From assembly GCA_037893225.1 (NCBI GenBank), contig JAZGUH010000770.1:248001-312000 (forward strand): a stretch of DNA of 64,000 nt, written 5' to 3'. Within the stretch, counting starts at the first letter, position 1. Every line of letters begins with the position of its first letter. Positions 9,292 through 52,667 of this stretch are shown piece after piece. Both the position numbers and the translations under genes were made by a program. The notes under the pieces were generated by a model. The model was not told the DNA's origin, made no database searches, and saw only the letters and a program-made list of their open reading frames with translations. The DNA comes from Hippasteria phrygiana (Eukaryota > Echinodermata > Asteroidea > Valvatida > Goniasteridae).

Positions 9292-9332
9292 CTCATATTG
9301 AGCCTGCGTCCGGTGTACATATTAATCATACA

Positions 9333-12226: not shown

Positions 12227-12229
12227 AGT

Positions 12230-19474: not shown

Positions 19475-19833
19475 ACCTGGCGGAAGCTAGCCCGAGATTC
19501 AGCACGCGATTCAGCCCGCGATTCGCAATAGGGCCCGCGATTCGCCCGATCAGAGCAGCCGCATATAGAAAACTAGAATCCATCCGACAAAAGGAGTTTT
19601 TTTTTTTTATGAAATCACTGGATTCAGGCAACGAATTTTCGAAAAATATCAAGAAATTACAAACCAATTTTGCTTGAATTTTCAGAATAGGTATAGGCAA
19701 AGCTGCACATATTATACTGAACGCTATTTTATGTGTATTTTTTATGAAATAATTTGTCAATTCGCGAGGGCCCATTTCAAAAGCTTCTCTACATCAATTC
19801 CTTTCGGCTCAGCACAATAGCTTCTGTTTAAAA
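19475..19833. repeat. Unique terminal inverted repeat, left
   Basis: It pairs with 52283-52667. It starts with a short run of diverged AATCGCGGGCTG-type units (here inverted, 19495-19552), followed by unique DNA shared with the right end, up to the junction TTTAAAAGAAAGTG, where the monomer array begins. The right copy has about two more of the AATCGCGGGCTG units. Confidence 0.85.
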
Positions 19834-22800: not shown

Positions 22801-24857
22801 GAAAGTGTACCGCACATGTTTTGGAATATTCATATTTTTCTTTCATATTCATAATTCCCACCTTCCTGGGCACACTTAATTTCAGCAAGGGCCTATTCCA
22901 AGAATGGCTTCTGCTCCAATTAGCCGCTTAAAGACGGACCATTTTTAAGAAAATTTGGAAATGCGGTATTGTAGTTCGGGTGGAATGCCGTCTTTGAGAG
23001 AAAGTGTACCGCACATGTTTTGGAAAATTCATATTTTTCTTTCATATTCATAATTCCCACCTTCCTGGGCACACTTAATTTCAGCAAGGGCCTATTCCAA
23101 GAATGGCTTCTGCTCCAATTAGCCGCTTAAAGGCGGACCATTTTTCAGAACATTTGAAAATGCGTTATTCAGAGTTTCGGGTGGAATGCCGTCTTTGAGA
23201 GAAAGTGTACCGCACATGTTTTGGAATATTCATATTTTTCTTTCATATTCATAATTCCCACCTTCCTGGGCACACTTAATTTCAGCAAGGGCCTATTCCA
23301 AGAATGGCTTCTGCTCCAATTAGCCGCTTAAAGACGGACCATTTTTAAGAGAATTTGGAAATGCGGTATTTGGAATACCGTCTTTGAGAGAAAGTGTACC
23401 GCACATGTTTTGGAATATTCATATTTTTCTTTCATATTCCTAATTCTCACCTTCCTGGGCACACTTAATTTCAGCAAGGGCCTATTCCAAGAATGGCTTC
23501 TGCTCCAATTAGCCGCTTAAAGACGGACCATTTTCCCAGAATATTTGAAAATGCGGTATTTGGAGTTCGGGTGAAATGCCGTCTTTGAAAGAAAGTGTAC
23601 CGCACATGTTTTGGAATATTCATATTTTTCTTTCATATTCATAATTCCCACCTTCCTGGGCACACTTAATTTCAGCAAGGGCCTATTCCAAGAATGGCTT
23701 CTGCTCCAATTAGCCGCTTAAAGACGGACCATTTTTAAGAAAATTTGGAAATGCGGTATTGTAGTTCGGGTGGAATGCCGTCTTTGAGAGAAAGTGTACC
23801 GCACATGTTTTGGAAAATTCATATTTTTCTTTCATATTCATAATTCCCACCTTCCTGGGCACACTTAATTTCAGCAAGGGCCTATTCCAAGAATGGCTTC
23901 TGCTCCAATTAGCCGCTTAAAGGCGGACCATTTTTCAGAACATTTGAAAATGCGTTATTCAGAGTTTCGGGTGGAATGCCGTCTTTGAGAGAAAGTGTAC
24001 CGCACATGTTTTGGAATATTCATATTTTTCTTTCATATTCATAATTCCCACCTTCCTGGGCACACTTAATTTCAGCAAGGGCCTATTCCAAGAATGGCTT
24101 CTGCTCCAATTAGCCGCTTAAAGACGGACAATTTTTAAGAGAATTTGGAAATGCGGTATTTGGAATACCGTCTTTGAGAGAAAGTGTACCGCACATGTTT
24201 TGGAATATTCATATTTTTCTTTCATATTCATAATTCCCACCTTCCTGGGCACACTTAATTTCAGCAAGGGCCTATTCCAAGAATGGCTTCTGCTCCAAAT
24301 AGCCGCTTAAAGACGGACCATTTTTAAGAACATTTGAAAATGCGTTATTCAGAGTTTCGGGTGGAATGCCGTCTTTGAGAGAAAGTGTACCGCACATGTT
24401 TTGGAATATTCATATTTTTCTTTCATATTCATAATTCCCACCTTCCTGGGCACACTTAATTTCAGCAAGGGCCTATTCCAAGAATGGCTTCTGCTCCAAT
24501 TAGCCGCTTAAAGACGGACAATTTTTAAGAGAATTTGGAAATGCGGTATTTGGAATACCGTCTTTGAGAGAAAGTGTACCGCACATGTTTTGGAATATTC
24601 ATATTTTTCTTTCATATTCATAATTCCCACCTTCCTGGGCACACTTAATTTCAGCAAGGGCCTATTCCAAGAATGGCTTCTGCTCCAAATAGCCGCTTAA
24701 AGGCGGACCATTTTTAAGAACATTTGAAAATGCGTTATTAAGAGTTTCGGGTGGAATGCCGTCTTTGAGAGAAAGTGTACCGCACATGTTTTGGAAAATT
24801 CATATTTTTCTTACATATTCATAATTCCCACCTTCTTGGGCACTCTTAATTTCAGCC
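19834..24857. repeat. Left tandem array, about 26 monomers of 189-202 bp
   Basis: Each monomer contains in order AGTGTACCGCACATGTTTTGG, a TTTCTTTCATATTC tract, CACCTTCCTGGGCACAC, TTTCAGCAAGGGCC, ATGGCTTCTGCTCC and CCGCTTAAAGACGGACC. Variants differ mainly between GGACC and the next AGTGTACC. The 189-bp class has a compact hairpin CGGTATT-TGG-AATACCG. Longer classes have GAGTTTCGGGTGGAATGCC or GTAGTTCGGGTGG. One unit near 22540 is truncated. The array stops mid-monomer at about 24857. Confidence 0.93.
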
Positions 24858-25114: not shown

Positions 25115-28100
25115 ATGGGTCGATTCGATCGTGGATATCGCGGAAAAGTTCTGCGTTGGGCGACAGGAGTAAGTGGAAAGCAGAACAAGTCATTAATTCC
25201 ACCATTAGACGAGAAAGACAGTTCTAAGAAACCGGTAAGTTTGAACATTCTTCAGGTGCGTCCACGTGGTACTTGCAGTGTTGTTTCATTTTGCTACATT
25301 TTTCAATGGAGGAAACTCCTCCATGATTTCACTCGTATATCGAAGTTTTAACATGACTAATAATAATGCCTCTGTGAGCAAGGATACCATTGTAAGCCGG
25401 TTATAGACCATTATAGCGCTAATTCCAAAAACTTAAAGAATATCACTGTTTTGTGGTAAAACAAATACATTTTTCACAAAACATGTATAGTGCTATTTAT
25501 GTCAAATGGCGGGTGTGGCCTATGCCTGCTGCAGTGCTGGTGAAAATTCCGCTGGTGATGACCGTAACAAAAATTTGCCGAATCTGCTGACGATTTTCAA
25601 TTAAAATGGCGTTCAATTTTATTTTTATGGTTATCATATTGTTGATTTCTCTGATTTCTAAAGACCGTAAAAATACAAATTTGCCCAAGTGGAACATGAT
25701 TTTAGAATCCTGTTGTGCTGGAAATACTTCTTTCCCGTGCTGGATCACACTTTCTGTGCATGATTTTTGAATAAAGTTAAAAACAAATCAACCAACCTAA
25801 TTTTGGCAAAAAAAGTTTAATGAAAGGAAAAGGGTATCATTGAATAACTTACCTTTGTTTGTTTAATAAATCGGTATTAATTACTTCACTTGAAATCTCA
25901 GTGTCATGTTAAAGTAATAATTGCTTTAAGGACATGAACAAGTGGAATACACATGTGGTGTGGACTACCGGTATTAGTGCACTGCTTTGTACGTGTACCT
26001 TAAGCTTAACATAAATATTTTTGTTCGTGTTGTTGTGCATATATAGAGGAGGTAAATAATATTGCACTTTATTTTCATGGTTTTTTTCCCACGAAATTTG
26101 ACAGATTATTATGTTTTCTTTGATTTGTATTATTGGTACGAAATACAGGCAGGGTCGGTCGGAAATGAGAACCAAAGAAATAAAAACAGACGCCCAAAGA
26201 CTCAAGGAACAGGGATCACTAAATGATGCACTACCGTGCACTGTGAATTACTTGCTTAATTCCACTGAAATTGATGTTTTATTTTACTTTTCATCCTGAT
26301 ATATGAGATATCATTATAAAAGTACTGATTCCGAGCAGACGATGCATTATTCAGGGTTTACAAGTCTAATAAAACCGAAATGTGACCGAGGTTTTTTCTT
26401 AATAGGATACAGTGTATTTGCTCATAACTTCGTTTTAACGTAAACCCAATAGGTCGTACTATTTATTAGATCACTGTTGCTTTGCCATAGTTTGTCATTT
26501 TTATTTTGTTCACCCATGCAAATTAAGTTGTTGTCCGTTTAATTTGACGTCTTCCAAATTAACCCGCTGCCTTTCATAGAACAGGAAAAAGGGTCAGGCA
26601 TGGCGGGATAGGAACAGTTTCGGTGTTTGTTTGATCTCTTTGTGATCTGTTGGGATTTGTTAGATCTCTGATGAGTCGTGGTGGCTTCCTTGGGAAAGTT
26701 TATAAACCGCAAATAGGCTATAGGCAAGACTTAAGAACACTTTCATTGTGTGTTGTGTTTATTATTACAAAATACATGTGGGCCTATCAATTGTCGAAGA
26801 TGCTCCTGTTGCGGGCTCATACCAGTGAATTGTGTTTGGGAACTCATTTTCACCACAAGATTACCATCTGCCAGCTCCTTTAACTTGCCGCCCTCCCGAC
26901 AGCTCTATGACGTGTCCCGCCTTCCGCCACTGCTGTTTAAGCCGCCGCACTTAATTCCCTATTCCAGTATAAATTCGGAAGTTGCCGTTATAGCTTGTAA
27001 CTTGTCGCACTTAAACCACCCATAAATTAAATGCAATCAACACATGTACTAGAGAGCGCCATTGTTATGCGGGTCCAAAGTTTGATTGGGATGCGAAACT
27101 AAGCTCTTTTTAGGGGTTTTGTGTGGTCTGCGTTTCTGAGAAGAACTGGTTATTTTAACTTAACGTTTCGTACAAGGGTTGCAATTGAGCCAGCCCGAGT
27201 AAATCTAGAACCCTTCAGCTGTATATATACATGTAAATCTTCGCGTCGTTAAACATTCTCGTTCTCACTCAGTTGCGCGATGAGGCAACACTTTGAACGA
27301 ACAGGGAACCTAGCAACCAAAATGCCGAATGTGGAAGGTCGTTTTTTGCCGGAATTCGTGTTTACCCATCTCCAAGTATTTTTTTTAAAATAAATTTTCC
27401 CTGCCAAATACTAAGATAACATTCCAACATTAATGTTTCTTGATGTGGTTAATATAAAATACAAAAAACATCTTCTTGAAACAAATTATGGCAAGAGAAA
27501 GATCATCCCAGTGTAAGTGCCCTAAGGCGGACTGCCCGAGGTATCCGAAGCCCGCCGGGCATGATTTTTTCAGGCTCTATTTCTATGTTTATTAATGGCT
27601 TAATGTTCTACTTCATTGGCATTTGATAAAAATCTCTCTTATAAATATAGACATTGGTTTTAAACATTAAATAAACTTTTCCTAACTTCGACGGGTTCAA
27701 GTTAAATACGCGAAGTCCTTCATTACTTTCCCCACTTGATACGCAGTTTTTGTCACTTTGTGAAATCACAGCAGCGCCCAAATGGATAACATCTATGACT
27801 GATATTCAAGTTAGGTGTTTAGGTGTATCCGATCAGTGAAATAACATGCTATGGGCATGAATCCTCTTTCGCACCAGCTGACTAATTTCGTTAGATCTCG
27901 TTACGCAATTCTGACTTTCATATATCTCGTACTTTTTTTTATTTCTCCATGCTTCCACAAAGAAATACATGACATAAATATTATCTGCTTTGCTGATTTT
28001 TGTCCCGACATTTTTGTTTGAAATGTAGCCCCGGGTGTTCCATGGAGCGCTCTGTTTCCCGCGGCGTTATGGAGGGAAATTTGAGCGCCCTCTGTATCAC

Positions 28101-31069
28101 CGGGAGCAGTAGGCCTATCTGTTATATAACACCTCTCTCACAAATTCCCTTGTATTTTAAAAGATAACTGTTTATTTAATCCAGATAACAATAACATTTA
28201 CTTCTATATTTCGCGAATTAAATCAAAAATGTAGTTGCACGTTTCCAAATTAGAAAATATTTGAACCCGGCTCTGTGGCGTTTGCGCTTGGTTGACAAAA
28301 CGCACAACGTTGCCTCTGAATCATCAGTTATTTACCTTACCTAACCATCTCAAATGAGATCAATTTAAAACCAATGTTGCCCCTGAGAAGGTCCGAAATC
28401 ATTTCATTTGATAGTCAAAATAAATGTTACTGGTTCACCCGATCATCGGGCGACCGGTACGTTTTTCACGGATGCATCGGGCTCCAGACCGCAACGTTAA
28501 ACGTGACAAATTTCGTTTCGTAATCGTACGTAAGGTTCAGTCTATTGATTATAAAAAAAACCTGTCAGTTTTGAACCATGTGCCCTTCATAATACCGGAT
28601 TCACTTATTGTAAGATGACGTCATAATTAGTCAAACGTCTCACTTGAAATACCGTAGCTAATTTCCATACGACAAATTTTAGACAGCGTTTCCATCATTA
28701 ACATTCCAATTTCTTTTACATGCCGTTATGAGGCGACCTCTCGATTTATGACGTGAAGCAAAGATCATGCGGTTTTGCGTCTTTACAATGTTGCTCATTA
28801 TTTATGTTACTAAAATGGCATTTAAACTGACTCCATATTGAGGAATGATACATAATGACACCTCTCTGTTCTCTTTTTCAGCTTGTGATGCTGTATGGTG
28901 ACTCGCAATGGAGGTCTGTAGTCGATGGATATGTCAACCTCCCGGACGACGAGACTTTCCGAATGGGTGTGAATTGTACCCCTGGAGCAACTGTACAGGC
29001 TATGCACAAAGTATTTACATGCTTAAAATATTCCTTTGATTGAAATTTAAACATCATGTTAAACATCCCTTACCCTAAAATGTGGTCTCCTTTATTTTAG
29101 GCGAAAAAAGGACAAAAAGGGAACGTCTTCACCTTCTCGTTTTTGTGATACGTTCCGCAGCAAATATAATAGACAAGTCATGTGATAATCCAGATCCTAT
29201 ACGCCGCATCCCGCCTTCACGAAAAAGAAAATGCAATGATACGCCATGTCTTTTAAGAAGGGATTTTTTGCCAAAAAATTATTTGCAGTTTGTATGTTTT
29301 GTCTATACGTCTGCAAACTTCTGAAAAAGGGGTTTTATTTTGCGGCAAAAATAACCCGCCCTCCAAGAGAAGTTTTTTTATGCAGCCATCCCTACGTCAA
29401 ATTTTGCGGCGAAAGAAGTGTTCACCTTACATTAGTGGACTGTTTGTTGGACATCTCATTTATATTATAGCTCAAGTAAAAACATTGAATAGCTTTAGGA
29501 ATATATAGAAGAACACAAATAATAGAAAATAACCGGAACGCGTTTCTCGCCAGATAAGGCAACATACAGTATAGTTTACAAATACACGAGTTTTGTTTAA
29601 TTTATATTACCAATTTTGCTTATGTCATGCATTGTGTGACAAATACATGTACGTCTTGCTTTTCTATTTAGGAGCTGAGGCATGCAACTACATCAGTGTA
29701 TCCTGATGTTTTGGTTTTTAGTATTGGCACTAACAACATTTCCAGTTTGAGGTGTTCCTATGAATCCACGCAGAGGGACTTCGGTCTTCTGCTCGACCAT
29801 GCCAAGGGGAACTACAGAAATACTGAGGTATAATAGACCTTCTCTTCCTTGCTGTTTAATAAATTGGGTTGCTTTCTATAATTAACGATTTTCCCTATCT
29901 TGTACATACGAAAACGTAGCATTAACTAGGCAGCTTCAGTATACCGTTGACCGTTGTAATGTAACTTATTGCGCATGAATACCATTTATGCATGCAGTGA
30001 GTAACGCACCATCCGGGCCGCAAATAAACTTAAAAGTACAAGCTTAATGAGTTTTTGTCTTACTAAAAGTAACAGCCATACAAGGCATTTTGTTCGGAAA
30101 TAGCAGTTTAGTGTATTTGTTATTGGAATGACAATCTGTAAAAAAAAAAAAAAACGGGTGTGAGCAACTCCGAAACTTAAGTTTCTTCTTTGCATGAATA
30201 TTGTGCCCCATTTCATTTTATTTGTGCATGCACAAACAAACGGTTGTAATTAGGTTGGCGCAGTGGTTACTGTCCCCGCCTTTCACCGCTGTGGCCCGGG
30301 TTCGATTCCTGCCCTGGTCCACATGTGGATTGGGTTTTTAGTCCCTACCTGATTCCGTGGGTTTTCCCCAGAATATTCTTCTGGGGTTTTCCTCCCACCT
30401 CTAAAACTGTAACTTCTTCTCATTATCTTATCTCTACATGTTTCTTCAAGCTTCCGAGCTACAGTGCCTAGGGTGCTTTTGAGGAATCTTTGGTTTCATT
30501 ACCAAAAAGAATTAATAATAATAATAATAATAATAAAGTAAATTAAAACAGTTGTCAGACATGTAATATTGAACAGCTTTGCATCACATACGGGTATTCC
30601 AAGGGCGTGTAAATACAAATAGTGCACGGTGATAATTTTAACTTATGCAAAATGATCGTGAAAGAATTTGTTTTATGATGAAGCGGTTTTAACACTCATG
30701 GACAATTTACTATAACAATTAAAAAAAACCAACGCTGTTTATGTTCTTTATATTCTTTTTTACAGATTGCCGTGTTATCCATTATCCCGCGATTGGATAA
30801 GTTTGGTACTTGTGTTAGTAGATTCAACAACATGCTTCACATTTTGTGCAAGCAAAAGGGGGTTCATTTCATCGACGTTAATGATGACTTCCAGACGCAT
30901 CATGAGGAACTATGGAGCTATGACGGTTTACATATAAGTGATACAGACGGAGCACCACTGCTGATTGACCTTCTTCAGGGGGCACTAAGAAGGATACTTA
31001 CTGCTCGACAGCCGAGTCAGAATAAGGCCTTGCCACAGAAGAAACCGGAAATATCAGCATCCGCTCCAG
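25115..31069 (+). CDS. Exons 1-4: SGNH/GDSL hydrolase domain
   Basis: Exons 25115-25234, 28882-29010, 29672-29827 and 30766-31069 encode a short basic leader (MGRFDRGYRGKVLRW) and a compact SGNH hydrolase, a fold used by esterases, lipases and acetylhydrolases. The four signature blocks are present: GDS in LVMLYGDSQW (Ser 48), the block II Gly in TPGATV (Gly 75), GTNN in VFSIGTNN (Asn 104) and the Asp-His pair in YDGLH (Asp 188, His 191). The domain is near the short end for the family (about 180 residues). There is no signal peptide, so it would act inside the cell. Exons 1, 2 and 3 end in phase 0 and exon 4 ends in phase 1, matching exon 5. The substrate is unknown. Confidence 0.8.
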
Positions 31070-34000
31070 GTTAAACATAGCGAAAGATTTACTGAGGACC
31101 AAATTAATTTCAAACATATCTCGAAATCATCCCACCCCCCCAAACAAAAATACAATTGTTTAGATGACGCTAAAGGTTTTATAACAAGAAAGCAAGTATT
31201 GTATTTAAAAGTAATTTAACGATAAGTTATCTGTGCCTGAAAAAACTATCGGAAGTAAAAAAGAGAACATGCACAGTCAGTTGATTGAAGGATTTATGTT
31301 GCTAAATAACTGCAAAGCCCACCGAAAAAAAGAAACATGATATATCATTTAATGTTGTGGTCTTTCAAAAACAATTCTTCTCATACAGGTAGACCTAAAG
31401 TTAGACAACCTTCTCTGGTTATCGTGGCTCCCAACAAAGAAGTCAACAGCTGCCGAAAGACCATAAGTCGAATGTCACGTCGAGCAATACCTCTGGACAA
31501 ATCGAGGAAGGAATACTCAAGGATATGCGGGAAACAGTAAGATTACTTGATTGTTGAATAAGCAAGTACTTTTCATCGAGTCATCGAGGGGGTGTCGAGA
31601 CCATCGTGAGTTTCGATATCCCTTTCAAACTCCCCGTACCACTAAGTGTAATCGGAATGTAGGCCCTATACCGGTATCTTCCGTTTCACGAAATTGGTCT
31701 GGGAATAATGATAAAAACATCTGTCCCAATCGTAACGCATGTGTCCATAAACACAATATACCCTTATCGCGGGAATCGAGGGTTGAAAGCCGATCTCCGA
31801 TTCAACTCAACGTACGCAACTTATTAAACTAGGACTATGTTTTCCCAGTTCGAACTTAATGCACGATGTTGGATTCACACACTGAATGTGCAACCGCCCG
31901 ATATAAAAGGAAAAGTAATTCATTAGTTCGAAATCCATTAACCTACCCCCCCCCCCCCCCCCCGGTACCCCCCCCCCCCCCCCCCTCCTAAAAAACCACC
32001 CGTGGCCTAAAGAATGCGATTATATTTTATATTTTGTCTGCCTGATATATAAAACCTGAATTTGATGGGTTCCTCGCCATTCTTCCGTATCCCCTTTTAC
32101 ATATGCTATTGCTTTTCTTCCAGAAACAGGCCACTGATGTGGGGTCCTGATGCCTCACGCCTAGGTACAGTCACATACGCCCTACCGTACTGTTACGCAG
32201 CCATGTACGCACGTAAGGTAAGGTGAAATACATCAGAAGTACAAAAGCTGAAAGTGCTGCAAACGTTGTAATCAATTAGTTCATTTCAAGTTTTAAAGCC
32301 AGGCGGAACCTAGCGTGTGCCATTTGGTTTCTGAATAATACAAACGTAATCTTACCACACAATGGCCTAGACCGGCCGTAAAGCACAGCAGATGATCGAA
32401 TCGGATCAGGCGGATACAAAACGCGACGATCTGTCGTAATGTAAATAAATAGGGTTTGGGGTATACACTATAGAAACATCTCTGTTGGTTGAATTCTTTT
32501 ATTTCATCAAATACAAATAAAAAAAAAAAACACACGGCGCTGAAAATAATCAATTAACTTCGGTACATCTATTGGTAGAAAATATTGTTTTTAGCGAAGT
32601 TCCGGAGGGTTCTATGGAGCCTAAACATTTCATTTGGTTTTTATGAGCTTACATTGTAGGCCTATTTGTGCTTACTGGATGTCAGTTACATTCAAAGAAA
32701 TATAAGTAGTCGTTGAGAAACGCTCGCATAAAACGGCAACGTTTATTTCAAAACACTTTGATGTGTTTAATCATAAACTTTTATGCGTACGATTAAGCGG
32801 GTTTCTATATTAGCTCTAACGCTAATTAAGCGTTGCCTTTGAAATGTCAAAGTACATATAGCTAACAGCCCATCGCAAGCTTGTTTTCCGGTAAAAATGC
32901 GTCATTATTTTACGTCCGTCATTTTAATTACGTTCGAACAAGTTTCCGGGAGGAAATCCGAGGAAAGTCTGGTTCCCGGGCCAAAATATTCTTACTATTT
33001 CTGATGAATATTTAGGTCCGGTCGCCGCTAATATCCTCCCGTAGCCGAAAATGTTTGGAATTTTCCGAACTTCTTTTCGGTAACATTTGGCTATTAACGT
33101 TGATATTCGCACCAACAAAATGTCTGTCGTTGCAGATCCTTAAATTTTATAATTATTTCTCAATTATACACAAAATCTTAAAAATCAATGGCATACTCAG
33201 GGAGCCAGACTAATACGAGGACCATTTGCTGTCTATCAGATGCATATTTACTGTGTGTTGACTAAATGTCCACTAGAACGCGTCGTAGTTGCGGCACATT
33301 GTAGCTAGGGAACCAGCGCGTCGCAGCCCTGCGCATGCGATGCGTTGAAATTTACGGTTTTAACGTACTTGTTTAATACTGGCTAAGCACATTCATCCCG
33401 TCATTATGCTTGTAGCACTTTTCATGCATTTTTATGAGTGACCTTTCATGTTTCGATGAATACAGACCAAGAAACAAAGCAAGACCATTCCACGTCAGCA
33501 ACATGCAAAGAGCGCCGCCTGTGCTACACCCGCAGAGCGACCCTCGAGTGCTACCTGTTTTCTGTGTGCAAAACAGTGTAACAGTGGTGATGATTTTCTC
33601 AATCATTTCCATTCTCACCATGCGCTAAAAACGGTAATATAAAGACTCTCTTTTTCTAAATGGCTGTTATGTATTTTTCAGTGGTTTACCTTTGCTTAAA
33701 CCATCACACGGTACAAACAGCAATCGGTGCTCAACGTGCAATTGGCCGATACGATTTAGGAATATAGCCCCAGTTAAAAACACGTTTTACAAATATTGTC
33801 CACACACTTGCTGAATGAGACACTTAAAACAAACCAGATTTTTCTAACTTGAAGATGTTCTTGAAAGGATTCAGCAGTGATTATCGAGGGTTTGGAACCG
33901 TTTTCTATCAATCAACCTTCACTGATTCTAATAAGTCTGTTTTTCCCAAAGATGTCTCTGTGGTGTCATCAAATATCCGGCCTGCCAAATAGAGGACCCA

Positions 34001-37000
34001 CTGATTCCCCGAAAGTTTACTTGAACATGCACTCTAAAATCTTCCGTGTCAGATTGACCCGTAACCCAGTTTATATTGGCCATTTATTTCCTGGTCCAAA
34101 CAAATTTTCGAGAGCCCAAACGCCCTGGAAAATGTCATTTTTCGGAAATGTCATTTGTCAAAGTTAAAGAAAATAACCCTTACTTCGAGTCTAACGTGCC
34201 CGAGAATGCTCGGAGTGTCCTACGGTTTCACATAATATTTTTTGCCGTTTTTGAGCACTGGAAATTAAAAATAACACGCATAATAACACTTTCAATTTCA
34301 CAGAAATCGACTGACAACGCCGGTACCGGAGGAGGCAGGAAAAGGCTGAGAGGAGAGTGGAAGGTAGAACGCATAGCTAATGTCCTAGCTGAGTCTCTAG
34401 ATGGTTATCCAGGTAATGATGATAACATAGATTTGTCGCTAGAGACTGTGGGTACCTTACAACAACAAATATATTCCTTGAGAAAGCAACATTGCCGCAA
34501 ATTGATAGCAGTCATGTGGCAAAGCAACCGACAAGGCCTCAGGGATAGGGTCAGAGAGAAAATGCTAAAGCATGTTCAGGCAAACGAAAATTGTACGACT
34601 AAATGCAGTCCAGAAAACAACGAATCCCGTTCTGTTTGTGAAAAGACAGAAACTGTTTGTGATCCTTCGTCGGATTCAACTATGAATTCTGAACGTAGAA
34701 TGCGACCAGAACCAAAACGAGAGTCTGATCTAAAAAATGATACATGTACATCTAAAAACAACAACAATGTGCAAAATGAATCATTAGAAAATGTCATAAC
34801 GGCCTCGCCACAACTTCCCGTTGGTACATCTGAAAACGGCAATCGGCAAAATGAATCATTAGAAAATGTCATAACGGCCTCGCCACAACTTCCCGTTGGT
34901 ACATTAGAAAAGGGAAATCGGCAAAATGAATCCTTAGGAAATGGCATAACGGCCTCGCCACACCGTCCCGTTGGTACATCTGAAAACGACAATTGGCAAA
35001 ATGAATCGTTAGGAAATGTCATAACGGCCTCGCCACACCCTCCCGTTGGTACCTCTAAAAACGACAATGTGCAAAATGAATCATTACAAAATGTCATAAC
35101 GGCCTCGCCACAACTTCCCGTTGGTACATTAGAAAAGGGTAATCGGCAAAACGAATCCTTAGAAAATGGCATAACGGCCTCGCCACATCGGCAAAATGAA
35201 TCATTAGGAAATGTCACAACGGCCTCGCCACACCCTCCCGTTGGTACCTCTAAAAACGACAATGTGCAAAATGAATCATTACAAAATGTCATAACGGCCT
35301 CGCCACAACTTCCCGTTGGTACATTAGAAAAGGGTAATCGGCAAAACGAATCCTTAGAAAATGGCATAACGGCCTCGCCACATCGGCAAAATGAATCATT
35401 AGGAAATGTCACAACGGCCTCGCCACACCCTCCTGTTGGTACCTCTAAAAACGACAATGTGCAAAATGAATCATTAGAAAATGTCATAACGGCCTCGCCA
35501 CAACCTCTCGTTGGTACATCTGAAAGCGGCAATCGGCCAAATAAATCATTAGGATATGTCATAACGGCCTCGCCACATCGGCAAAATGAATCGTTAGAAA
35601 ATGGCATAACGGCCTCGCCACATCGGCAAAATGAATCGTTAGAAAATGGCATAACGGCCTCGCCACATCGGCAAAACGAATCCTTAGGAAATGTCATAAC
35701 GGCCTCGCCACAACCTCCCGTTGGTACATCTGAAAACGGCAATTGGCAAAATGAATCGTTAGAAAATGGCATAACGGCCTCGCCACATCGGCAAAATAAA
35801 TCGTTAGAAAATGGCATAACGGCCTCGCCACATCGGCAAAACGAATCCTTAGGAAATGTCATAACGGCCTCGCCACAACCTCCCGTTGGTACATCTGAAA
35901 GCGGCAATCGGCAAAATGAATCATTGGAAAATGACATAACGGCCTCGCCAAAACCTCCCGATGGATACCAGTATAAAAAAGCACGAGGTAATAAAATACA
36001 GTCTAAGAAATGCAGTAGAACACCAGAACATTCCCACGATACGCCGAAACTTTACTGCATATGCCGACAACCCCACAACGAATCGCGAAGCATGATTGCT
36101 TGTGACGAATGTGACGCCTGGTACCATTATAAATGCATAGACCTTGAGCCTAAATCACGGAATAAGTCATATTTGGACAATGCCAGATTTATTTGCGGCA
36201 TGAATGGATGTAACGCAGGTGAAAGAGTGTTCGTTCCCAAAACAGAACTCGGGCACGAACACTCTTCTGATCCTGAAGAATTGGGTCATTCATCAGACCA
36301 CGGGGAGAGACAAACAGAGAATTTCGAAAAAGTGTCAGACTGGATTGAATCAAATGTGATAAACTTTGGAATACCTTCAAATATTTCTTTATCGGAAGAT
36401 GGACAGGTAACTCCAAATGTGTCATCAATTAAAACACACATGGACGGGGAGGGGTTTGGACTCACTACTGGTTGTGATAATGATAACAGGGATAATAGTG
36501 CCGATAATTGTATGAATTCACCAATAAAGAAGAGGAGGGTTAAGGTTGATGAACTGTCGTCAGTTTTTTCACGATTGTCACATTCTTCGCAATTAGATTT
36601 GGATGGGGAATTCTTAGAAAATGCTGTTCCTTCCGACGTGATGATGGACATGTGTCTTGAAATGGGAGATGTGATTGAACATGGCGAGTACTGGACGACG
36701 GAATTGCCCTCGTCACGAAAATGTTTGTTTCACGTTGACCGGTCGGAGTGGAAACAGTTAAAAAACAACCAACGTGGCCACTCGTTACCAACAAATTGGG
36801 TACACGCGTTCGTGAAAGGACTGAAAACCTTACATCCTTACTGTTCTTTCCAATTTCGCCGACACTCTGTAGCCTCTCAATCAAGCAGAAAACAATCAAA
36901 ATATGCATTTACTGCTAATGGATATTGCAATTTTAGTGACTGTGGTGTAACGTTTAAAATGACGATGAACACAGAAAGTAATTTCAAAGTACAAGTTGTA

Positions 37001-40000
37001 TTCAGTGGGAAAGTGAAGCATAGGAATTGTGAACGACGGGCGGAGATATGTTAGAAATACGACGAGAGACGAAATGAAAAATAAATTGAAGTACAAGAAC
37101 GTTCGGCGGGAATACCTTGATAATATGAAATCGTTAAGCGATGCCGAGTTCTTTTCAGGATGTCGAGATGGTGCGCCAAACAAGGTCGTGTTGCATAAAA
37201 TCTCAAGTGAGGCTAAGCGGTTATCCGATGAAAAAGAAAGTGAAATCCAAAGTCTGCTAAATGTAATAAGTAGGCAAGCTGATTCAAGTAAACGTTTCCC
37301 CGGCATATTACGTCAGGTTTGCCTTCATCCAGCCTATGTTATGCTATATTCGGAAGACAGTATTCGTATTTATCATAGCATTTCCACTAAAGACATAATT
37401 TATTTTGATGCAACAGGTTCCATTGTCAAAAATAACTCAAAGTTTTCGGATTCAAAGATGTATCAGCTGTATGACATTGTCTTACGGCATCCATTCAAGG
37501 GTTCACCCCCTTTTGTAGTAGCGTCTTTGCTGACAACGGAACACAACGCAGTGTTAATAGGTTATTTTTTGCAATGCTTCCTCCATTCCGAACAGAAACT
37601 CTATGGCCATAACGGTGTAAAATCACCACTCATGCTCATGATTGACGGAAGTCCAACTCTTTTAATTGCAACACTGAAATCCTTTAACAATGAATCTGTG
37701 ACTGAATACACTGAAAGGTGTTATAGAATTGTTACTGGTAAGGCAAGGGAGAACGATTTGAAAAAAACACACGTTCATTCCTGTGCCAGTCACTTCGTGA
37801 AAAACAGTGCCAAAATGTGCAGGAAGTATTATCATTCCAACTTTCGTGATGCAATGTATTGGATTGGTCTTCTCGTACAAGCAAGCACCCTTGACGAAAT
37901 CGATGAAATCATACTGTCTATGACAATAATAACATGTTCGGAGTTTGCAACGGATCTTGTAAAATCAAACTTTGAGAAACTAAAATCTAAAATTGAACAT
38001 CAGAATTCCACCAAAAATGATTACTTGGAAGAGAATGTATCTGAACACGCCGATGGAGAGGGAGACCCTTCCACATCAGACTTCCACAACTTGGCTGAGA
38101 GCGAAACAAGCAGCCTTGATATTTCGGAGGACGAATATATTCAAAAAGGATACAACTCACCATTTAAGGCTCATTTTCAAGGGATTATCGAACTAGGAAA
38201 AAGGGAAATTGACAAATATGGCAAGGGTACAAACACTGCAGTACAGCATCTCAAAAATCCCTACTTAGGGAAAGAATTTCTGAATTATCTTTTGCAATTT
38301 CCACTCTCAAACATAGCTAGCTGGTCAGCACTTTTACTACATGATCATGGAAGGCACGGAACATCGCAGATTTATGAAAACTATTCAAAGATGTACAGGG
38401 TTCTAGAAAATTCAAAATTTCAGAATATATCAAGGGACAATCGGACACAAGGGATAGTTGAAAAATCCATGCAAGAGACGAAAAGAGCGAAATTGATGTA
38501 CAATAGGGTTGGAAAATTGATTGATTTCGTTCTCATTTACGAAAGAGACATGCTCCCCCTACAAAGGGAATTCGTTGAAGCATTCTGCACCTCTAAACGG
38601 ACCATCCGTAAACGATCTTTGAAACTGTCTACTGAGAAATGGTCCAAACGTCCAAAAACAAGCACACCAACAAATAAAGGTGTCTACCTTACTCCCCCAA
38701 CTCAGGAATTGCGGTTTAAAGACGGGTCAAACAAAAAAAGGGGAAAGCAAGAACAACCAAAACCGGAAAGCGCAAACGCCTTTCTTCACAAAGTGAAAAA
38801 GAACCACTCGTCTAAACACAAGAAAACCGCAGTCGTGGACACGACAAATCAGTCAACATCGTCTTTACTCAGGGGGATTTCAAACAATCAAGTATCTTGT
38901 TGGTGGATTTCAACCATCCAAGCTGTTCGACCATTCATTGATGCAACAAAAATAAATGTTGCTAAGTTTCAAGGAAGCGAAGTATTTCTTTGGCGAAACC
39001 TATTGAAGCTTTTTGAATCATTAAACAATGGAAATACATCCGCTGTTCCATTCCACGAAGTGAAGCCATTGGTAGAAGAGAGTGCATTGCAAATGGAATT
39101 AATTCCAAACACCAGCAAGATGCTGCCGAATTTTATTCGCAACTGATTGTACCTTTTTTGGGGGAGTCTTGTCTCACCAACGAAATAGAAATTATAAAAT
39201 CAGTGATGTGCCTACGTTGTGACGAAAGCGATCCAACAGAAAATTCAAGTTCGGGAGTGTTGCCGGTTCCTCTGAATAAATCGACTTTAGATAAATGCAT
39301 TCAACAGGTTTTTGAAGATGAAATGATTTCGGACGTAAACTGTGATTTTTGCCGCGAGACATTGTGTAAAAAGATCATGACAACGCGCATCGTAAATTGT
39401 CCGTCTGTGTTAGTCGTGCAACTACTACGGACCCGTGTCGTTGAAAACAAACTTGAAAAAATTACTACAGAAGTTCTCCCCAGTGTAGAAATAGATTTAC
39501 GCCGTTTCTGTTTGAACAAAACACCCGCCGTTTACCGCCTGAGATCTGTAATAACGCACGAGGGTCAATCCCTACAAAGCGGACATTATAAAGCCTTTGT
39601 TAGGGAAAATTTGTACGGTACAGGTTCTGTCACGAAATTCGACGACTCACGGGTAGACCGCATAGGCACGTTTGCTTTTACCACCCAGATATCGGAATCT
39701 GGTTACATATACTTTTTTGAAAGAACAGATGTTCACAAGAAAGACAAAGACTGCACGGGCTCATGCACTTCAGATGACAATTTCGTGGTAAGCGATAAGG
39801 AGAGAGAATTTGTGAACATTCTATGGTGTTCGCTCAATGAAAAAAACCTGCATAGCGTTGCAGTCGAAAACACAACGAACACCGAGTTCTTAACATTTTC
39901 CCAATTGGCAACGATTAATTCTTCTCCCTCCCCTGCTATTGTGAAGCGCCTGAAACATGCATACACAAATTATCAACCAGGATGGTTGGGAGAAGGAGTG

Positions 40001-40613
40001 ATAGATTTTTACCTGAACCAGCTTTGCAAACTGTCACATAATGATCCCCACCAGAAAAGAAAGTTTGGGTCCGTGCAGTGCTTTGTGACCAAGAAGATAT
40101 TGCATAATAAAATAACTCCAGAAACGTATCGATCAGTGGCAAAACACTGCTTTGTAGGTATGCGTTTCTGCGAGGTGATGTTATTTCCCCTATTAGAAAA
40201 TATGCACTTCACCCTGTACGCCATCGACACTAAAAGTAGCAGGATAGATTGTTTGGATTCCATGAGTGACAGGAAAGACACTAGGCAGAAGAGGTTAGCC
40301 CATGGTCATGCATTCAGGGAGTTTTTTCAGAACGGTCTAATCAAGAGATACTGGAATAATACTCATGGTGTTCTTCAGTGTGAAAAAATGATTAACATAA
40401 GACAAGCCACCCTGTCTGCAGCAAACAGATTCAGCAAGTTGTGGTGTTTATTGCTGCTTGTTTGCCGAGGAAATGTGTCTGGGAGAGAGAAAACTTCACA
40501 TAGGCAATGATAGTGAAGAACTCCGAATGTATCTCACGATTCAGCTAATACAACGATCCAACATTGTTGACCCTCAGCTTCAACAATTATATTCAACTTA
40601 TATGAATTTGTAA
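25115..40613 (+). CDS. Giant spliced transposase gene: SGNH-C2H2-PHD-GCM/FLYWCH-MULE DDE-USP-Ulp1
   Basis: Eight exons can be joined with consensus GT-AG junctions and matching phases: 25115-25234, 28882-29010, 29672-29827, 30766-31069, 31389-31536, 32124-32217, 33466-33633 and 34304-40613. The predicted product is about 2,470 residues. Domains in order: SGNH hydrolase (about 40-215), C2H2 finger (348-368), coding minisatellite (about 525-930), PHD finger (about 955-1010), GCM/FLYWCH-like zinc module (about 1180-1285), Mutator-like DDE core (about 1390-1780), USP protease (about 1890-2160) and Ulp1-like protease (about 2240-2475). AATAAA overlaps the stop. Exon 8 has single-base frame breaks near 37031, 39072-39117 and 40401-40437, so this copy may not make a full protein. 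It is the only gene recognised in the element. RNA evidence is needed to show that all exons belong to one transcript. Confidence 0.75.
30253..30537 (+). mobile_element. tRNA-derived SINE in intron 3
   Basis: It begins with a tRNA-like head: A-box-like TTGGCGCAGTGGTTA (30255-30269) and B-box GGGTTCGATTCC (30298-30309). A body follows with the word TTTTCCTCCCACCTC, a form common in conserved SINE central domains, and it ends in an (AAT)n tail at 30511-30535. It lies in the same orientation as the host gene, entirely within the intron 29828-30765. It would be transcribed by RNA polymerase III and copied by a partner LINE. Confidence 0.8.
31389..33633 (+). CDS. Exons 5-7: basic linker and C2H2 zinc finger
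   Basis: Exon 5 (31389-31536) opens with two bases that complete a Gly codon from exon 4 and encodes a basic stretch (GRPKVRQPSLVIVAP, SRMSRRAIPLDKSRK). It ends two bases into a Gln codon completed by exon 6 (32124-32217; NRPLMWGPDASRLG). Exon 7 (33466-33633) encodes one classical C2H2 finger with exact spacing C-X2-C-X12-H-X3-H (C348, C351, H364, H368; CFLCAKQC then NHFHSHH). Acceptors are TACAG, TTCCAG and ATACAG. Donors are CA|GTAAGA, AAG|GTAAGG and ACG|GTAATA. The phase agreement across three junctions is the main evidence. The finger probably contributes to DNA or protein binding. Confidence 0.7.
31946..31985. repeat. Poly-C tracts inside intron 5
   Basis: Two C homopolymers (31946-31963 and 31968-31985) are separated by GGTA. 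They are likely length-variable and a place where assembly length may be wrong. They lie in the intron 31537-32123 and do not affect the reading frame. Confidence 0.9.
34304..37054 (+). CDS. Exon 8, part 1: coding minisatellite, PHD finger and GCM/FLYWCH-like module
   Basis: The exon starts after TTTCACAG at 34303 in phase 0 with KSTDNAGTGGG and a basic segment (KRLRGEWKVERIA). From about 34760 to 35960 it is a coding minisatellite of QNESLENVITASPQLPVG units. A PHD finger follows (YCICRQPHNESRSMIACDEC, then WYHYKC, then FICGMNGC), with the usual Cys-His order but a wide last Cys pair. After an acidic stretch, about 36720-37030 encodes a zinc module (GYCNFSDCGVTFKM ... FSGKVKH) like the GCM/WRKY-type DNA-binding domain found before Mutator-family transposase cores. 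The frame ends at 37054, but coding sense moves to the next frame near 37031. Confidence 0.8.
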   Translation, partial: KSTDNAGTGGGRKRLRGEWKVERIANVLAESLDGYPGNDDNIDLSLETVGTLQQQIYSLRKQHCRKLIAVMWQSNRQGLRDRVREKMLKHVQANENCTTKCSPENNESRSVCEKTETVCDPSSDSTMNSERRMRPEPKRESDLKNDTCTSKNNNNVQNESLENVITASPQLPVGTSENGNRQNESLENVITASPQLPVGTLEKGNRQNESLGNGITASPHRPVGTSENDNWQNESLGNVITASPHPPVGTSKNDNVQNESLQNVITASPQLPVGTLEKGNRQNESLENGITASPHRQNESLGNVTTASPHPPVGTSKNDNVQNESLQNVITASPQLPVGTLEKGNRQNESLENGITASPHRQNESLGNVTTASPHPPVGTSKNDNVQNESLENVITASPQPLVGTSESGNRPNKSLGYVITASPHRQNESLENGITASPHRQNESLENGITASPHRQNESLGNVITASPQPPVGTSENGNWQNESLENGITASPHRQNKSLENGITASPHRQNESLGNVITASPQPPVGTSESGNRQNESLENDITASPKPPDGYQYKKARGNKIQSKKCSRTPEHSHDTPKLYCICRQPHNESRSMIACDECDAWYHYKCIDLEPKSRNKSYLDNARFICGMNGCNAGERVFVPKTELGHEHSSDPEELGHSSDHGERQTENFEKVSDWIESNVINFGIPSNISLSEDGQVTPNVSSIKTHMDGEGFGLTTGCDNDNRDNSADNCMNSPIKKRRVKVDELSSVFSRLSHSSQLDLDGEFLENAVPSDVMMDMCLEMGDVIEHGEYWTTELPSSRKCLFHVDRSEWKQLKNNQRGHSLPTNWVHAFVKGLKTLHPYCSFQFRRHSVASQSSRKQSKYAFTANGYCNFSDCGVTFKMTMNTESNFKVQVVFSGKVKHRNCERRAEIC
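34760..35960 (+). repeat. In-frame coding minisatellite
   Basis: About 1.2 kb of tandem units of 75 bp (QNESLENVITASPQLPVG plus about seven residues) is mixed with shorter 45-bp units (QNESLENGITASPHR). All unit lengths are multiples of three, so the frame is kept. Some adjacent units are nearly identical over more than 170 bp (for example 35044-35220 against 35224-35400), which points to recent unequal exchange. The encoded region is polar and probably disordered. The complementary strand is also open over 453 codons, a by-product of the repeat. Confidence 0.88.
37031..39115 (+). CDS. Exon 8, part 2: Mutator-like DDE transposase core and start of USP domain
   Basis: This frame continues the zinc module (GRRYVRNTTRDEMKNKLK) and then encodes an RNase H-fold transposase. 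Catalytic candidates are Asp in IIYFDATGSIV (codon at 37407), Asp in LMLMIDGSPTLLIA (37644) and Glu in TQGIVEKSMQETK (38460). A VHSCASHFVKN motif lies after the second Asp, like the Cys/His insertion of Mutator-type enzymes. The order and the FDATG/IDGSP words suggest a Mutator-superfamily (Phantom/NOF-like) transposase. A basic linker follows (RTIRKRSLKLS, SSKHKKTAV), then the USP cysteine box GISNNQVSCWWISTIQAV with its Cys codon at 38898. Sense passes to another frame just before the QQDAAEF motif. Confidence 0.8.
39116..40421 (+). CDS. Exon 8, part 3: USP (C19) protease and most of a Ulp1 (C48)-like protease
   Basis: The frame opens with QDAAEFYSQLIVPFLGE, the USP QQD motif. Two CxxC pairs follow (MCLRCDES, VNCDFCRE), the zinc ribbon found in many ubiquitin-specific proteases, and then the His box SLQSGHYKAFVRE (His codon at 39594) and FDDSRVDRI. 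Together with the upstream Cys these make a full C19 protease. A second protease starts at about 39960: GWLGEGVIDFYLNQL, then the His of MHFTLYAID (40205) and the Asp of DCLDSMSD (about 40256), the Ulp1/C48 pattern. Its catalytic Cys lies after a frame break in part 4. These enzymes cleave ubiquitin or SUMO-like modifiers. Confidence 0.8.
40422..40613 (+). CDS. Exon 8, part 4: Ulp1-like catalytic cysteine box and C-terminus
   Basis: Read in the frame that starts CAAACAGAT at 40422, this segment encodes QTDSASCGVYCCLFAEEM, the Gln...Cys box of Ulp1/adenain-type proteases (Cys codon 40440-40442), and ends at TAA 40611-40613 after LQQLYSTYMNL. The preceding frame runs on to 40510 without the motif, so there is a +1 shift, or a 52-base intron 40370-40421 with a poor donor. 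AATAAA overlaps the stop (about 40612-40617) and could be the polyadenylation signal. Confidence 0.75.
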   Translation, partial: QTDSASCGVYCCLFAEEMCLGERKLHIGNDSEELRMYLTIQLIQRSNIVDPQLQQLYSTYMNL

Positions 40614-40617: not shown

Positions 40618-42557
40618 TAAGATGAACCCTAATGACAATTTGCGTCATTTTGGTATTTTACAATATTATCTAATCTCTGTTGGTGCAATGTATTGATTAT
40701 GCTTGATCTTGCCTTTGACAAGTACAATTGCTTCATTTAAAACTTTATATCACATTGGAAAGGCTCTTATAATTTATATTCATATGCAATCGGGAAATCA
40801 CCTTTTTAACGTAACACTGAAATTTAGAAAGTTGCATGCTACACTGGGTAAAGTGAAACAATTGGCATCTGACTGGTCATACACCTATGACGTCACATTG
40901 TTTACGGAAGCTTGCCAAATATTGTCCTCGTGTAGCGTTCATTCTATTGCGTGGTTTGCTGTTGAGCTGTCAAGACGTCGTGCAGACAGCACCGCTTGTT
41001 ATATTAATTTCACTTTTGGAATTTGTTTTAATGCTTTCCTTTTAACCTTAATTGAATTTGTATAGATTTGTTTAAATAGCTTTTAGTAATACATTGTAGT
41101 TCAACTTATATTTTTCCAAATTCTTTGTGTGTTTTACGTGTCACTAACATTGGTAGCTTAGGGCCTATACATAAATGTTGATGATTTTTTAATTTACGAT
41201 TTATTCTCTGCGCATGAATTTAAGTATTTCTGTCACAGTCATATTTAAGCGCCTTCGTCATAACATTTTGCACTTTCTCAAATCATTTCAATTGTCTGAC
41301 TTGCATTTAGTATTAAGCAAGAACATTATTAGTTTTTCCGGTTTTGATCACACATTTTGTTTGTTAATTTCGAGTACGTGTAACAATTAATCTTTTTGAA
41401 ATTTCAGATTTGAACATTTTTTTATTCCTTTCTCATATTAACTTGCTGTTATTAAACTTTGATTGCGAAAGTTGTGATTTAAAGGTGATCATGGCCGATA
41501 AACGTAGCAAACCTAACCGTTCTTTGGAGGATGTTTTTCAGTTGCTTTCAGGGGGAGGCTGTCCTGTTGGAATGAGTCGTGACTAGCGTCGAACTGTTGG
41601 AAGATTTGCAAGCTGCTTCAGACTATATAGAAGGTATAATGCCAAAGATGTATACGTGTCCATATAACCATTCGAGTTTCTTTTAGGATTCATTGCAAGT
41701 TCAACTGATGAGTCATGAATTTGACGAAAGGGCAATTAGCAGCATTGAAAATGGAACTCTTCACAAACATTGGTTCTTTGGTTTACAAACATTGGCTCAA
41801 TATTTTCAAGTAAAAATAAATCGCAATTCAAATTGTTTTTAACTTGACAATTGCCCTCAATTTGAAAAGGGCTAAGTAAGCTGCTGATTGCCCTCTTGAA
41901 CACCGCATGATGTGTATAAAATTGAACAAACTTAAACATAATTCACCGGTGTCTGTCTTCATCAGGGTTCATGGGCGGCGATAACGAGGTGAGGGGACGG
42001 AGGGACACGTCCCCCAATATTTTGGGAGGAGGGGTCGGCTATGGCAGTGTCCCCCCCTCCCCCCAATAATTTCGTGAATACGCAAAGATCGGCAGACACT
42101 TTCAAATATTTCCCAGGATGCAGAAGATGTACACCGAGTGGAAAATGCTTAACAATTATTCTTGGGTGTCTGCTTTTTTCCTCCGTCCCCCAACCTTGAC
42201 GACAACTCGCCGCCGCTGTCGGGGTTCACAAAGCTACATGCACGTTTATCAGTTATATTGGATGATTATTAGGCCGTGTCCGAAATGGGCGTCTAGAGCT
42301 ACAGCTACGGCTACGTCACGCGTAGTTGTAATGGACGAACACCTATAGACAATAGCCATAGACAAGCGATTCGGACGCAGCTTTAAGATATATTAATTGT
42401 ACACTTTTAGGGTTTACATATTAATTTCAAAATAAAAATAATCGGTTCAAAAATTATCTTGCATGTTGGAGCGTCATAGTCAGGGAGGTACTACATACTT
42501 TACATTGTATTGAACAGATTACCTAAATATACATGTGTATAAATATACATGTGTATA
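40618..42557. other. 3' part of the element core, no gene recognised
   Basis: This 1.9-kb stretch between the gene and the right array has no supported gene. An ATG at about 41491 opens a 31-codon frame (MADKRSKPNRSLEDVFQLL) that stops at once; it could be the start of a lost exon, but no continuation was found. At 41965-42075, GTCCCCC(C) words in both orientations suggest a small inverted-repeat insertion. Confidence 0.45.
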
Positions 42558-45500
42558 CATTTTCTCTCAAAGACGGTATTCCACCCGAACTCCAAATACC
42601 GCATTTCCAAATTTTCTTAAAAATGGTCCGTCTTTAAGCGGCCAATTGGAGCAGAAGCCATTCTTGGAATAGGCCCTTGCTGAAATTAAGTGTGCCCAGG
42701 AAGGTGGGAATTATGAATATGAAAGAAAAATGTGAATTTTCCAAAACATGTGGGGTACACTTTCTCTCAAAGACGGCATTCCACCCGAAACTCTTAATAA
42801 CGCATTTTCAAATGTTCTTAAAAATGGTCCGTCTTTAAGCGGCTAATTGGAGCAGAAGCCATTCTTGGAATAGGCCCTTGCTGAAATTAAGTGTGCCCAG
42901 GAAGGTGGGAATTATGAATATGAAAGAAAAATATGAATATTCCAAAACATGTGCGGTACACTTTCTCTCAAAGACGGCATTCCACCCGAAACTCCAAATA
43001 CCGCATTTTCAAATATTCTGGAAAATGGTCCGTCTTTAAGCGGCCAATTGGAGCAGAAGCCATTCTTGGAATAGGCCCTTGCTGAAATTAAGTGTGCCCA
43101 GGAAGGTGGGAATTATGAATATGAAAGAAAAATGTGAATTTTCCAAAACATGTGCGGTACACTTTCTGTCAAAGACGGCATTCCACCCGAACTACAATAC
43201 CGCATTTCCAAATTTTCTTAAAAATGGTCCGTCTTTAAGCGGCTAATTGGAGCAGAAGCCATTCTTGGAATAGGCCCTTGCTGAAATTAAGTGTGCCCAG
43301 GAAGGTGGGAATTATGAATATGAAAGAAAAATATGAATATTCCAAAACATGTGCGGTACACTTTCTTTCAAAGACGGCATTTCACCCGAACTCCAAATAC
43401 CGCATTTTCAAATATTCTGGGAAAATGGTCCGTCTTTAAGCGGCTAATTGGAGCAGAAGCCATTCTTGGAATAGGCCCTTGCTGAAATTAAGTGTGCCCA
43501 GAAAGGTGGGAATTATGAATATGAAAGAAAAATATGAATATTCCAAAACATGTGCGGTACACTTTCTCTCAAAGACGGTACCGGTACTCCAAATACCGCA
43601 TTTTGAAATTTTCTTAAAAATGGTCCGTCTTTAAGCGGCTAATTGGAGCAGAAGCCATTCTTGGAATAGGCCCTTGCTGAAATTAAGTGTGCCCAGGAAG
43701 GTGGGAATTATGAATATGAAAGAAAAATATGAATTTTCCAAAACATGTGCGGTACACTTTCTCTCAAAGACGGCATTCCACCCGAACTACAATACCGCAT
43801 TTCCAAATTTTCTTAAAAATGGTCCGTCTTTAAGCGGCTAATTGGAGCAGAAGCCATTCTTGGAATAGGCCCTTGCTGAAATTAAGTGTGCCCAGGAAGG
43901 TGGGAATTATGAATATGAAAGAAAAATATGAATTTTCCAAAACATGTGCGGTACACTTTCTCTCAAAGACGGCATTCCACCCGAACTACAATACCGCATT
44001 TCCAAATTTTCTTAAAAATGGTCCGTCTTTAAGCGGCTAATTGGAGCAGAAGCCATTCTTGGAATAGGCCCTTGCTGAAATTAAGTGTGCCCAGGAAGGT
44101 GGGAATTATGAATATGAAAGAAAAATATGAATATTCCAAAACATGTGCGGTACACTTTCTTTCAAAGACGGCATTTCACCCGAACTCCAAATACCGCATT
44201 TTCAAATATTCTGGGAAAATGGTCCGTCTTTAAGCGGCTAATTGGAGCAGAAGCCATTCTTGGAATAGGCCCTTGCTGAAATTAAGTGTGCCCAGGAAGG
44301 TGAGAATTAGGAATATGAAAGAAAAATATGAATTTTCCAAAACGTGTGCGGTACACTTTCTTTCAAAGACGGCATTTCACCCGAACTCCAAATACCGCAT
44401 TTTCAAATATTCTGGGAAAATGGTCGTCTTTAAGCGGCTAATTGGAGCAGAAGCCATTCTTGGAATAGACCCTTGTTGAAATTAAGTGTGCCCAGGAAGG
44501 TGAGAATTAGGAATATGAAAGAAAAATGTGAATATTCCAAAACATGTGCGGTACACTTTCTCTCAAAGACGGTATTCCAAATACCGCATTTCCAAATTCT
44601 CTTAAAAATGGTCCGTCTTTAAGCGGCTAATTGGAGCAGAGGCCATTCTTGGAATAGGCCCTTGCTGAAATTAAGTGTGCCCAGGAAGGTGGGAATTATG
44701 AATATGAAAGAAAAATATGAATATTCCAAAACATGTGCGGTACACTTTCTCTCAAAGACGGCATTCCACCCGAAACTCTTTATAACGCATTTTCAAATGT
44801 TCTTAAAAATGGTCCGCCTTTAAGCGGCTAATTGGAGCAGAAGCCATTCTTGGAATAGGCCCTTGCTGAAATTAAGTGTGCCCAGGAAGGTGGGAATTAT
44901 GAATATGAAAGAAAAATATGAATAGTCCAAAACATGTGCGGTACACTTTCTCTCAAAGACGGTATTCCAAATACCGCATTTCCAAATTCTCTTAAAAATG
45001 GTCCGTCTTTAAGCGGCTAATTGGAGCAGAAGCCATTCTTGGAATAGGCCCTTGCTGAAATTAAGTGTGCCCAGGAAGGTGGGAATTATGAATATGAAAG
45101 AAAAATATGAATATTCCAAAACATGTGCGGTACACTTTCTCTCAAAGACGGCATTCCACCCGAAACTCTGAATAACGCATTTTCAAATGTTCTAAAAAAT
45201 GGTCCGCCTTTAAGCGGCTAATTGGAGCAGAAGCCATTCTTGGAATAGGCCCTTGCTGAAATTAAGTGTGCCCAGGAAGGTGGGAATTATGAATATGAAA
45301 GAAAAATATGAATTTTCCAAAACATGTGCGGTACACTTTCTCTCAAAGACGGCATTCCACCCGAACTACAATACCGCATTTCCAAATTTTCTTAAAAAGG
45401 GTCCGTCTTTAAGCGGCTAATTGGAGCAGAAGCCATTCTTGGAATAGGCCCTTGCTGAAATTAAGTGTGCCCAGGAAGGTGGGAATTATGAATATGAAAG

Positions 45501-52282: not shown

Positions 52283-52667
52283 CTTTTAAACAGAAGCTAT
52301 TGTGCTGAGCCGAAAGGAATTGATGTAGAGAAGCTTTTGAAATGGGCCCTCGCGAATTGACAAATTATTTCATAAAAAATACACATAAAATAGCGTTCAG
52401 TATAATAATGTACAGCTTTGCCTATACCTATTCTGAAAATTCAAGCAAAATTGGTTTGTAATTTCTTGATATTTTTCGAAAATTCGTTGCCTGAATCCAG
52501 TGATTTCATAAAAAAAAAAAAATCCTTTTGTCGGATGGATTCTAGTTTTCTATATGCGGCTGCTCTGATCGGGCGAATCGCGGGCCCTATTGCGAATCGC
52601 GGGCTGAATCGCGGGCTGAATCGCAGGCTGAATCGCGTGCTGAATCTCGGGCTAGCTTCCGCCAGGT
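52283..52667. repeat. Unique terminal inverted repeat, right
   Basis: Pairs with 19475-19833. It contains the short tandem AATCGCGGGCTG (52574-52648), longer than in the left copy, and ends CTTCCGCCAGGT. These terminal and array repeats are the likely transposase-binding DNA, by analogy with other fold-back elements. Confidence 0.85.

Follow-up and report, generated by a model that had tools for sequence, protein, structure and literature searches.

A probable frame-broken copy of a giant Rehavkus-like transposon in Hippasteria phrygiana, with a transposase gene predicted to include PHD, USP and Ulp1 modules

Can a single transposase gene carry, in a row, an SGNH hydrolase, a zinc finger, a PHD finger, a DDE domain and two proteases, and what kind of element would own it? 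This question is raised by a locus of Hippasteria phrygiana on contig JAZGUH010000770.1 of assembly GCA_037893225.1, of which we analysed positions 248,001–312,000 on the forward strand (64,000 nt, hereafter the window; all coordinates are counted within it). We consider it probable that the locus holds a giant Rehavkus-like transposon of the Mutator type, in a copy with a broken reading frame; splicing of its one gene is predicted to give a transposase of the order SGNH–C2H2-like finger–PHD–DDE–USP–Ulp1.

The element measures 33.2 kb (19467–52676) and is bounded by inverted ends made of tandem arrays, which were delimited with Tandem Repeats Finder (TRF) and by comparison of inverted pairs:

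19467–24856, + strand: left inverted terminus, an outer unique part and an array
42556–52676, − strand: right inverted terminus, an array and an outer unique part

The left array (19833–24856) consists of 201/390-bp units, with ~25 copies of the 201-bp unit by TRF, and the right array (42556–52284), in the opposite orientation, contains ~49 such copies. Inverted pairs between the left and right ends are up to 98–99% identical. The outer unique parts agree at 407 of 413 positions, and their match reaches ~19467 and ~52676. All modules described below lie on the + strand, within the 17.7 kb that separates the two arrays. The interval 19467–52676 is likely to be a giant animal DNA transposon. Because the terminal arrays, which show a 390-bp higher-order unit, differ twofold in copy number (~25 versus ~49), the ends of the element may also serve as a satellite seed.

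Within the core, eight exons were rebuilt from the sequence (25115–40613). Each of their seven junctions has GT/AG, and the phases (0, 0, 0, 1, 2, 0 and 0) match throughout. Splice sites were scored with a generic matrix, and the scores are expressed as percentiles among all such sites in the element core (997 GT, 850 AG). The exons, and the four frame segments of the last one, are as follows:

25115–25234, + strand: exon 1, with the start codon, 258 bp inward of the left array; donor CCG/GTAAGT at the 99.7th percentile
28882–29010, + strand: exon 2, SGNH; Ser codon 28903 (GDSQ), Gly codon 28984
29672–29827, + strand: exon 3, SGNH; Asn codon 29732 (GTNN)
30766–31069, + strand: exon 4, SGNH; Asp 30922 and His 30931 (DGLH); weak donor CAG/GTTAAA at the 84.7th percentile
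31389–31536, + strand: exon 5, bridge without a domain; acceptor at the 99.5th and donor at the 95.5th percentile; also picked by the path search
32124–32217, + strand: exon 6, bridge without a domain; acceptor and donor at the 99.9th percentile; also picked by the path search
33466–33633, + strand: exon 7, with the C2H2-like finger at 33556–33621; weak acceptor at the 82.8th percentile
34304–40613, + strand: exon 8, 6.3 kb in four frame segments; acceptor at the 97.2th percentile
34304–37042, + strand: exon 8, frame 1, coding repeats, PHD finger from ~36056 and N-terminal part of the transposase; matched by relatives from 36617
37044–39101, + strand: exon 8, frame 2, DDE domain and start of USP (Cys 38898)
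39104–40405, + strand: exon 8, frame 3, remainder of USP (His 39584, Asp 39641) and start of C48 (His 40205, Asp 40256)
40407–40613, + strand: exon 8, frame 4, end of C48 (Gln 40419, Cys 40440) and stop

Four acceptors (exons 2, 4, 5 and 6) score no lower than the 99.5th percentile, and two donors (exons 1 and 6) no lower than the 99.7th. For exon 6, the acceptor at 32124 is better than one at 32130, the frame being kept with either. In all seven small exons the predicted frame is the sole stop-free one; codon usage is uninformative on them, a rival frame scoring higher in four (exons 1, 4, 5 and 7). An AATAAA at 40612 overlaps the final stop, but the element core holds 34 AATAAA/ATTAAA words, so that this signal is by itself weak proof. 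Intron 3 contains, at 30250–30540, a stretch that by eye resembles a tRNA-derived short interspersed nuclear element with an AAT-repeat tail; Rfam returned no match there.

Profile searches of the joined exons 1–7 detected SGNH families PF13472 (8.2e-10, 39.9 bits; Pfam cut-off 32.9) and PF00657 (2e-6, 28.5 bits; cut-off 23.6), and the exon 4 frame on its own scored 20.8 bits. The active-site residues Ser, Gly, Asn and Asp..His are all kept (GDSQ, PGATV, GTNN and DGLH); against solved structures, the SGNH part gave one match, with an E value of 0.52. The C2H2-like finger scored under its cut-off (zf-C2H2_jaz, 12.2 bits versus 22.6); across the window's six frames it is the sole stop-free match to C-x(2-4)-C-x12-H-x(3-5)-H, and its frame is the one predicted for exon 7. 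A PHD finger was identified in exon 8, ahead of the DDE domain (PF00628, 9.4e-8); its closest solved relatives, by sequence, are the fingers of DIDO1 and BPTF. Both of these bind H3K4me3, and the same binding is predicted for the finger of the element. The region upstream of the PHD finger is an in-frame coding minisatellite of ~1.2 kb (34746–35950), whose units measure 45, 75 and at most 225 bp; across most of this minisatellite the minus strand is also open.

The transposase domain is covered by no Pfam family. We infer its catalytic residues to be D 37407, D 37644 and E 38460, with a CxxH at 37782–37793. The best match of its predicted fold is ISCth4, an IS256 family transposase of a bacterial insertion sequence, which, unlike the element, has no accessory modules. 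For the two proteases, profiles were scanned against frames joined with X at the frame changes. USP (C19) matched PF00443 at 5.4e-28 over profile positions 2–254 of 254 and is closest to USP2, with the catalytic-type Cys 38898, His 39584 and Asp 39641 present. Ulp1/SENP (C48) matched PF02902 (6.8e-11, 42.8 bits; cut-off 20.7) and is closest to SENP2 and SENP1; the His, Asp and Cys positions align, and His, Asp, Gln and Cys are all present. A preliminary description of this DNA had joined eight exons with matching phases at seven junctions, which we reproduced, and its order of SGNH, finger, PHD, DDE, USP and Ulp1 on one strand of a transposon-like element was borne out. Its individual domain calls held at the level of Pfam cut-offs for SGNH, PHD, C19 and C48, and not for the finger or the transposase.

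The same description suggested one fusion gene, went further than the evidence in assuming one transcript, and missed that this copy changes frame three times, so that an intact fusion gene is not supported. The four frame segments of exon 8 contain no internal stops; D, D and E of the transposase share one frame, and USP and C48 are both interrupted, each by one of the changes. We compared the segments with 11 related proteins, many of them partial. By tblastn, frame 2 is matched by all 11, and frame 1 also by six (P0001, P0003, P0004, P0006, P0007 and P0011), which span the first change with their pieces 0–12 residues apart; the pieces of P0001 overlap by two residues. The second change is spanned by P0001 and P0002, with 3 and 10 residues between pieces. 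Because relatives align through them, the first two changes are frameshifts of this copy or assembly indels; mini-introns at these two positions were ruled out, as the relatives align across with few or no residues missing. The third change was deduced solely from the C48 profile, whose Gln/Cys end sits in another frame, and may be a very short intron.

USP sequence occurs in three of the 11 relatives and C48 in two, with both in one (P0002). In Pfam scans, counted over 12 scanned sequences, UCH was found in P0001 and P0002 (2/12) and C48 in P0002 and P0004 (2/12). In P0002, whose record lacks the first part of the transposase, the modules transposase, USP and C48 follow one another as they do in the window, and the alignment of P0010 (24% identical) extends through the USP Cys box. 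The relatives with a protease after the DDE domain are 24–56% identical. Because USP and C48 are joined to such transposases in relatives too, the combination of DDE with USP and/or C48 recurs and is no accident of this locus. Relatives of the transposase also occur in fish, where P0003 (Perca fluviatilis) and P0004 (Garra rufa) carry the annotation of uncharacterized proteins; P0004 has C48 and no USP match. P0007, at 28% identity, comes from Helobdella robusta, which, to judge by the element's name, would host Rehavkus-1_HR; this is a lead. Searches of viral contigs and of bacterial and archaeal contigs found nothing.

The closest known kind of element is Rehavkus; the comparison was made through its published description and not by sequence, hence "Rehavkus-like". 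As far as the available excerpts go, Rehavkus combines a PHD finger and a transposase with a minisatellite and one open reading frame, is kin to Mutator-like elements, and has ends listed at 26–400 bp and a 9-bp target-site duplication (PMC6446971, PMC10218199). Rehavkus-1_TC is described there as 9.5 kb long, with 164-bp tandem satellite arrays in its inverted termini (PMC6446971, PMC10218199). The element of the window shares the PHD finger with a transposase, the minisatellite, a predicted single open reading frame and the arrays in inverted termini (201/390 bp here versus 164 bp). It differs in being 33 kb long rather than the 9.5 kb of Rehavkus-1_TC and in having ends of 5–10 kb rather than 26–400 bp; the 9-bp duplication was not found here, and the excerpts make no mention of USP, C48 or SGNH. 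The nearest functional precedent is found in plant Mutator-like elements, namely Kaonashi/KIU and VANDAL, which have Ulp1 (C48) domains, VANDAL elements also having the VANC anti-silencing gene (PMC6117577, PMC13317346, in the parts available). These are likewise of the Mutator type and carry a C48 protease; unlike the element described here, they belong to plants, their C48 sits on a separate gene of the element, and USP, PHD and SGNH go unmentioned in those parts.

A paper on KDZ (Kyakuja-Dileera-Zisupton) elements contains none of the terms protease, PHD, SGNH, peptidase, MULE or Mutator, which does not exclude KDZ. In the open-access literature, which leaves out Repbase reports, no title or abstract opening described a transposase with USP, which is not proof of absence; nor did the literature found, to the extent of its accessible text, describe a transposase with both proteases, PHD and SGNH. 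CR1-like long interspersed nuclear elements reportedly have esterase and PHD domains, according to a title cited in PMC4021074, which mentions a membrane role. They resemble the element in bringing an SGNH-type esterase and PHD together in one kind of mobile element, but are retrotransposons without a DDE transposase, USP or C48.

Several observations weigh against a single fused transposase in a Rehavkus-like element. No target-site duplication was found, direct repeats near the outermost ends being at most 7 bp long and the 7-bp one not abutting; the true ends of the element may be eroded. The DDE structure model is of middling confidence (mean pLDDT, the predicted local distance difference test, 65.5), and Foldseek alone found nothing in the PDB at an E value of 0.001 or lower, its best row being IstA at 6.1e-3. 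Because of the three frame changes, the copy as assembled encodes no single intact fused protein. Among the relatives, P0010 has no Pfam match, neither protease was found in the other seven, P0003, P0007 and P0009 among them, and PHD or SGNH was found in none of the 11, many of which are partial. No protein of fusion length was present among 4621 candidates, and a search with the SGNH part yielded none among 713. The domain order proposed in the preliminary description is matched in databases for DDE with USP/C48, and neither for PHD and SGNH nor at full length. The link from exon 4 to exon 8 belongs with these points. The donors of exons 2 (75.7th percentile) and 4 (84.7th) and the acceptor of exon 7 (82.8th) are weak. 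Shuffled DNA gave an equally good bridge between these exons in 7 of 150 cases with splice scores and in 9 of 150 with codons, the yardstick being the best real path and not the eight-exon path's own score. That best path keeps exons 5 and 6 and has shorter exons in place of exon 7. The bridge exons thus exceed chance only moderately. A stop at 31072–31074, directly past the exon-4 donor, would yield a separate SGNH protein of 237 amino acids if the donor were unused, and the transposase could have a start of its own at 34148, where an ATG stands in frame ahead of the exon-8 acceptor.

The weak exon-4 donor with the stop behind it, the ATG, the moderate performance of the bridge and the lack of SGNH in all 11 relatives would suit a transposon with two genes, one for an SGNH hydrolase (exons 1–4) and one for a separate PHD–DDE–USP–C48 transposase starting, for example, at 34148. 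We judge this arrangement somewhat unlikely: exons 5 and 6 have strong splice sites, the exon-8 acceptor lies at the 97.2th percentile, the finger of exon 7 is in frame, and between the end of exon 4 and 32444 there is no AATAAA and a single ATTAAA (31823). The missing SGNH in relatives could also mean that the SGNH exons do not belong to the transposon as such but were recently captured from a host gene by this copy, in Pack-MULE fashion; Mutator-like elements take up gene fragments, according to the abstract of PMC6446971. However, the relatives do not extend far enough upstream to reach the SGNH region, so their silence on it says little, the exons are open with all active-site residues kept, and exon 1 adjoins the left end, the expected place of the element's own first exon. 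Capture is, on balance, unlikely. With strong splice sites at exons 5 and 6, matching phases, an in-frame finger exon and exon 1 beside the left end all favouring one transcript, we consider a single gene that includes the SGNH exons fairly likely.

Elsewhere in the window, 7106–13490 is a probable DIRS-like retrotransposon. It has a reverse transcriptase frame (9252–11387; PF00078, 9.6e-23) and a tyrosine-recombinase frame (10067–12220; PF00589, 4.3e-7). An identical peptide start occurs at 7249 (+) and again at 12830 (−), and tracts of 8-bp repeats lie at 6589–6670 and 13409–13490. A tRNA-Arg gene (anticodon acg) lies at 61874–61947 (Rfam, 43.2 bits).

Under the single-gene reading, transcription is predicted to start within the left end or next to it, given that exon 1 lies 258 bp inward of the array, and the transcript to end past the AATAAA that overlaps the stop. 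The DDE domain would excise and insert the element, and the PHD finger would steer it toward active promoters. The two proteases, USP and Ulp1, would take ubiquitin and SUMO off the transposase, or off chromatin at the donor or target site, which could spare the transposase degradation and SUMO-dependent silencing; for SGNH, an accessory esterase role is our guess. The protease domains could instead be inert remnants with no enzymatic role, since in this copy a frame change interrupts both USP and C48. This is very unlikely, given that the Cys, His and Asp positions of both are present and that the domains follow DDE in relatives as little as 24% and up to 56% identical, which points to long retention. 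Beyond this copy, we tentatively propose a class of giant animal transposons in which one transposase, with an N-terminal SGNH domain, would read H3K4me3, cut and paste DNA and remove ubiquitin and SUMO, and so escape silencing.

Host silencing of transposons depends in part on SUMO and ubiquitin. A transposase equipped to remove the two would therefore offer a directly testable example of an element editing its own repression, and the recurrence of the proteases in relatives down to 24% identity makes it more than a one-locus curiosity.
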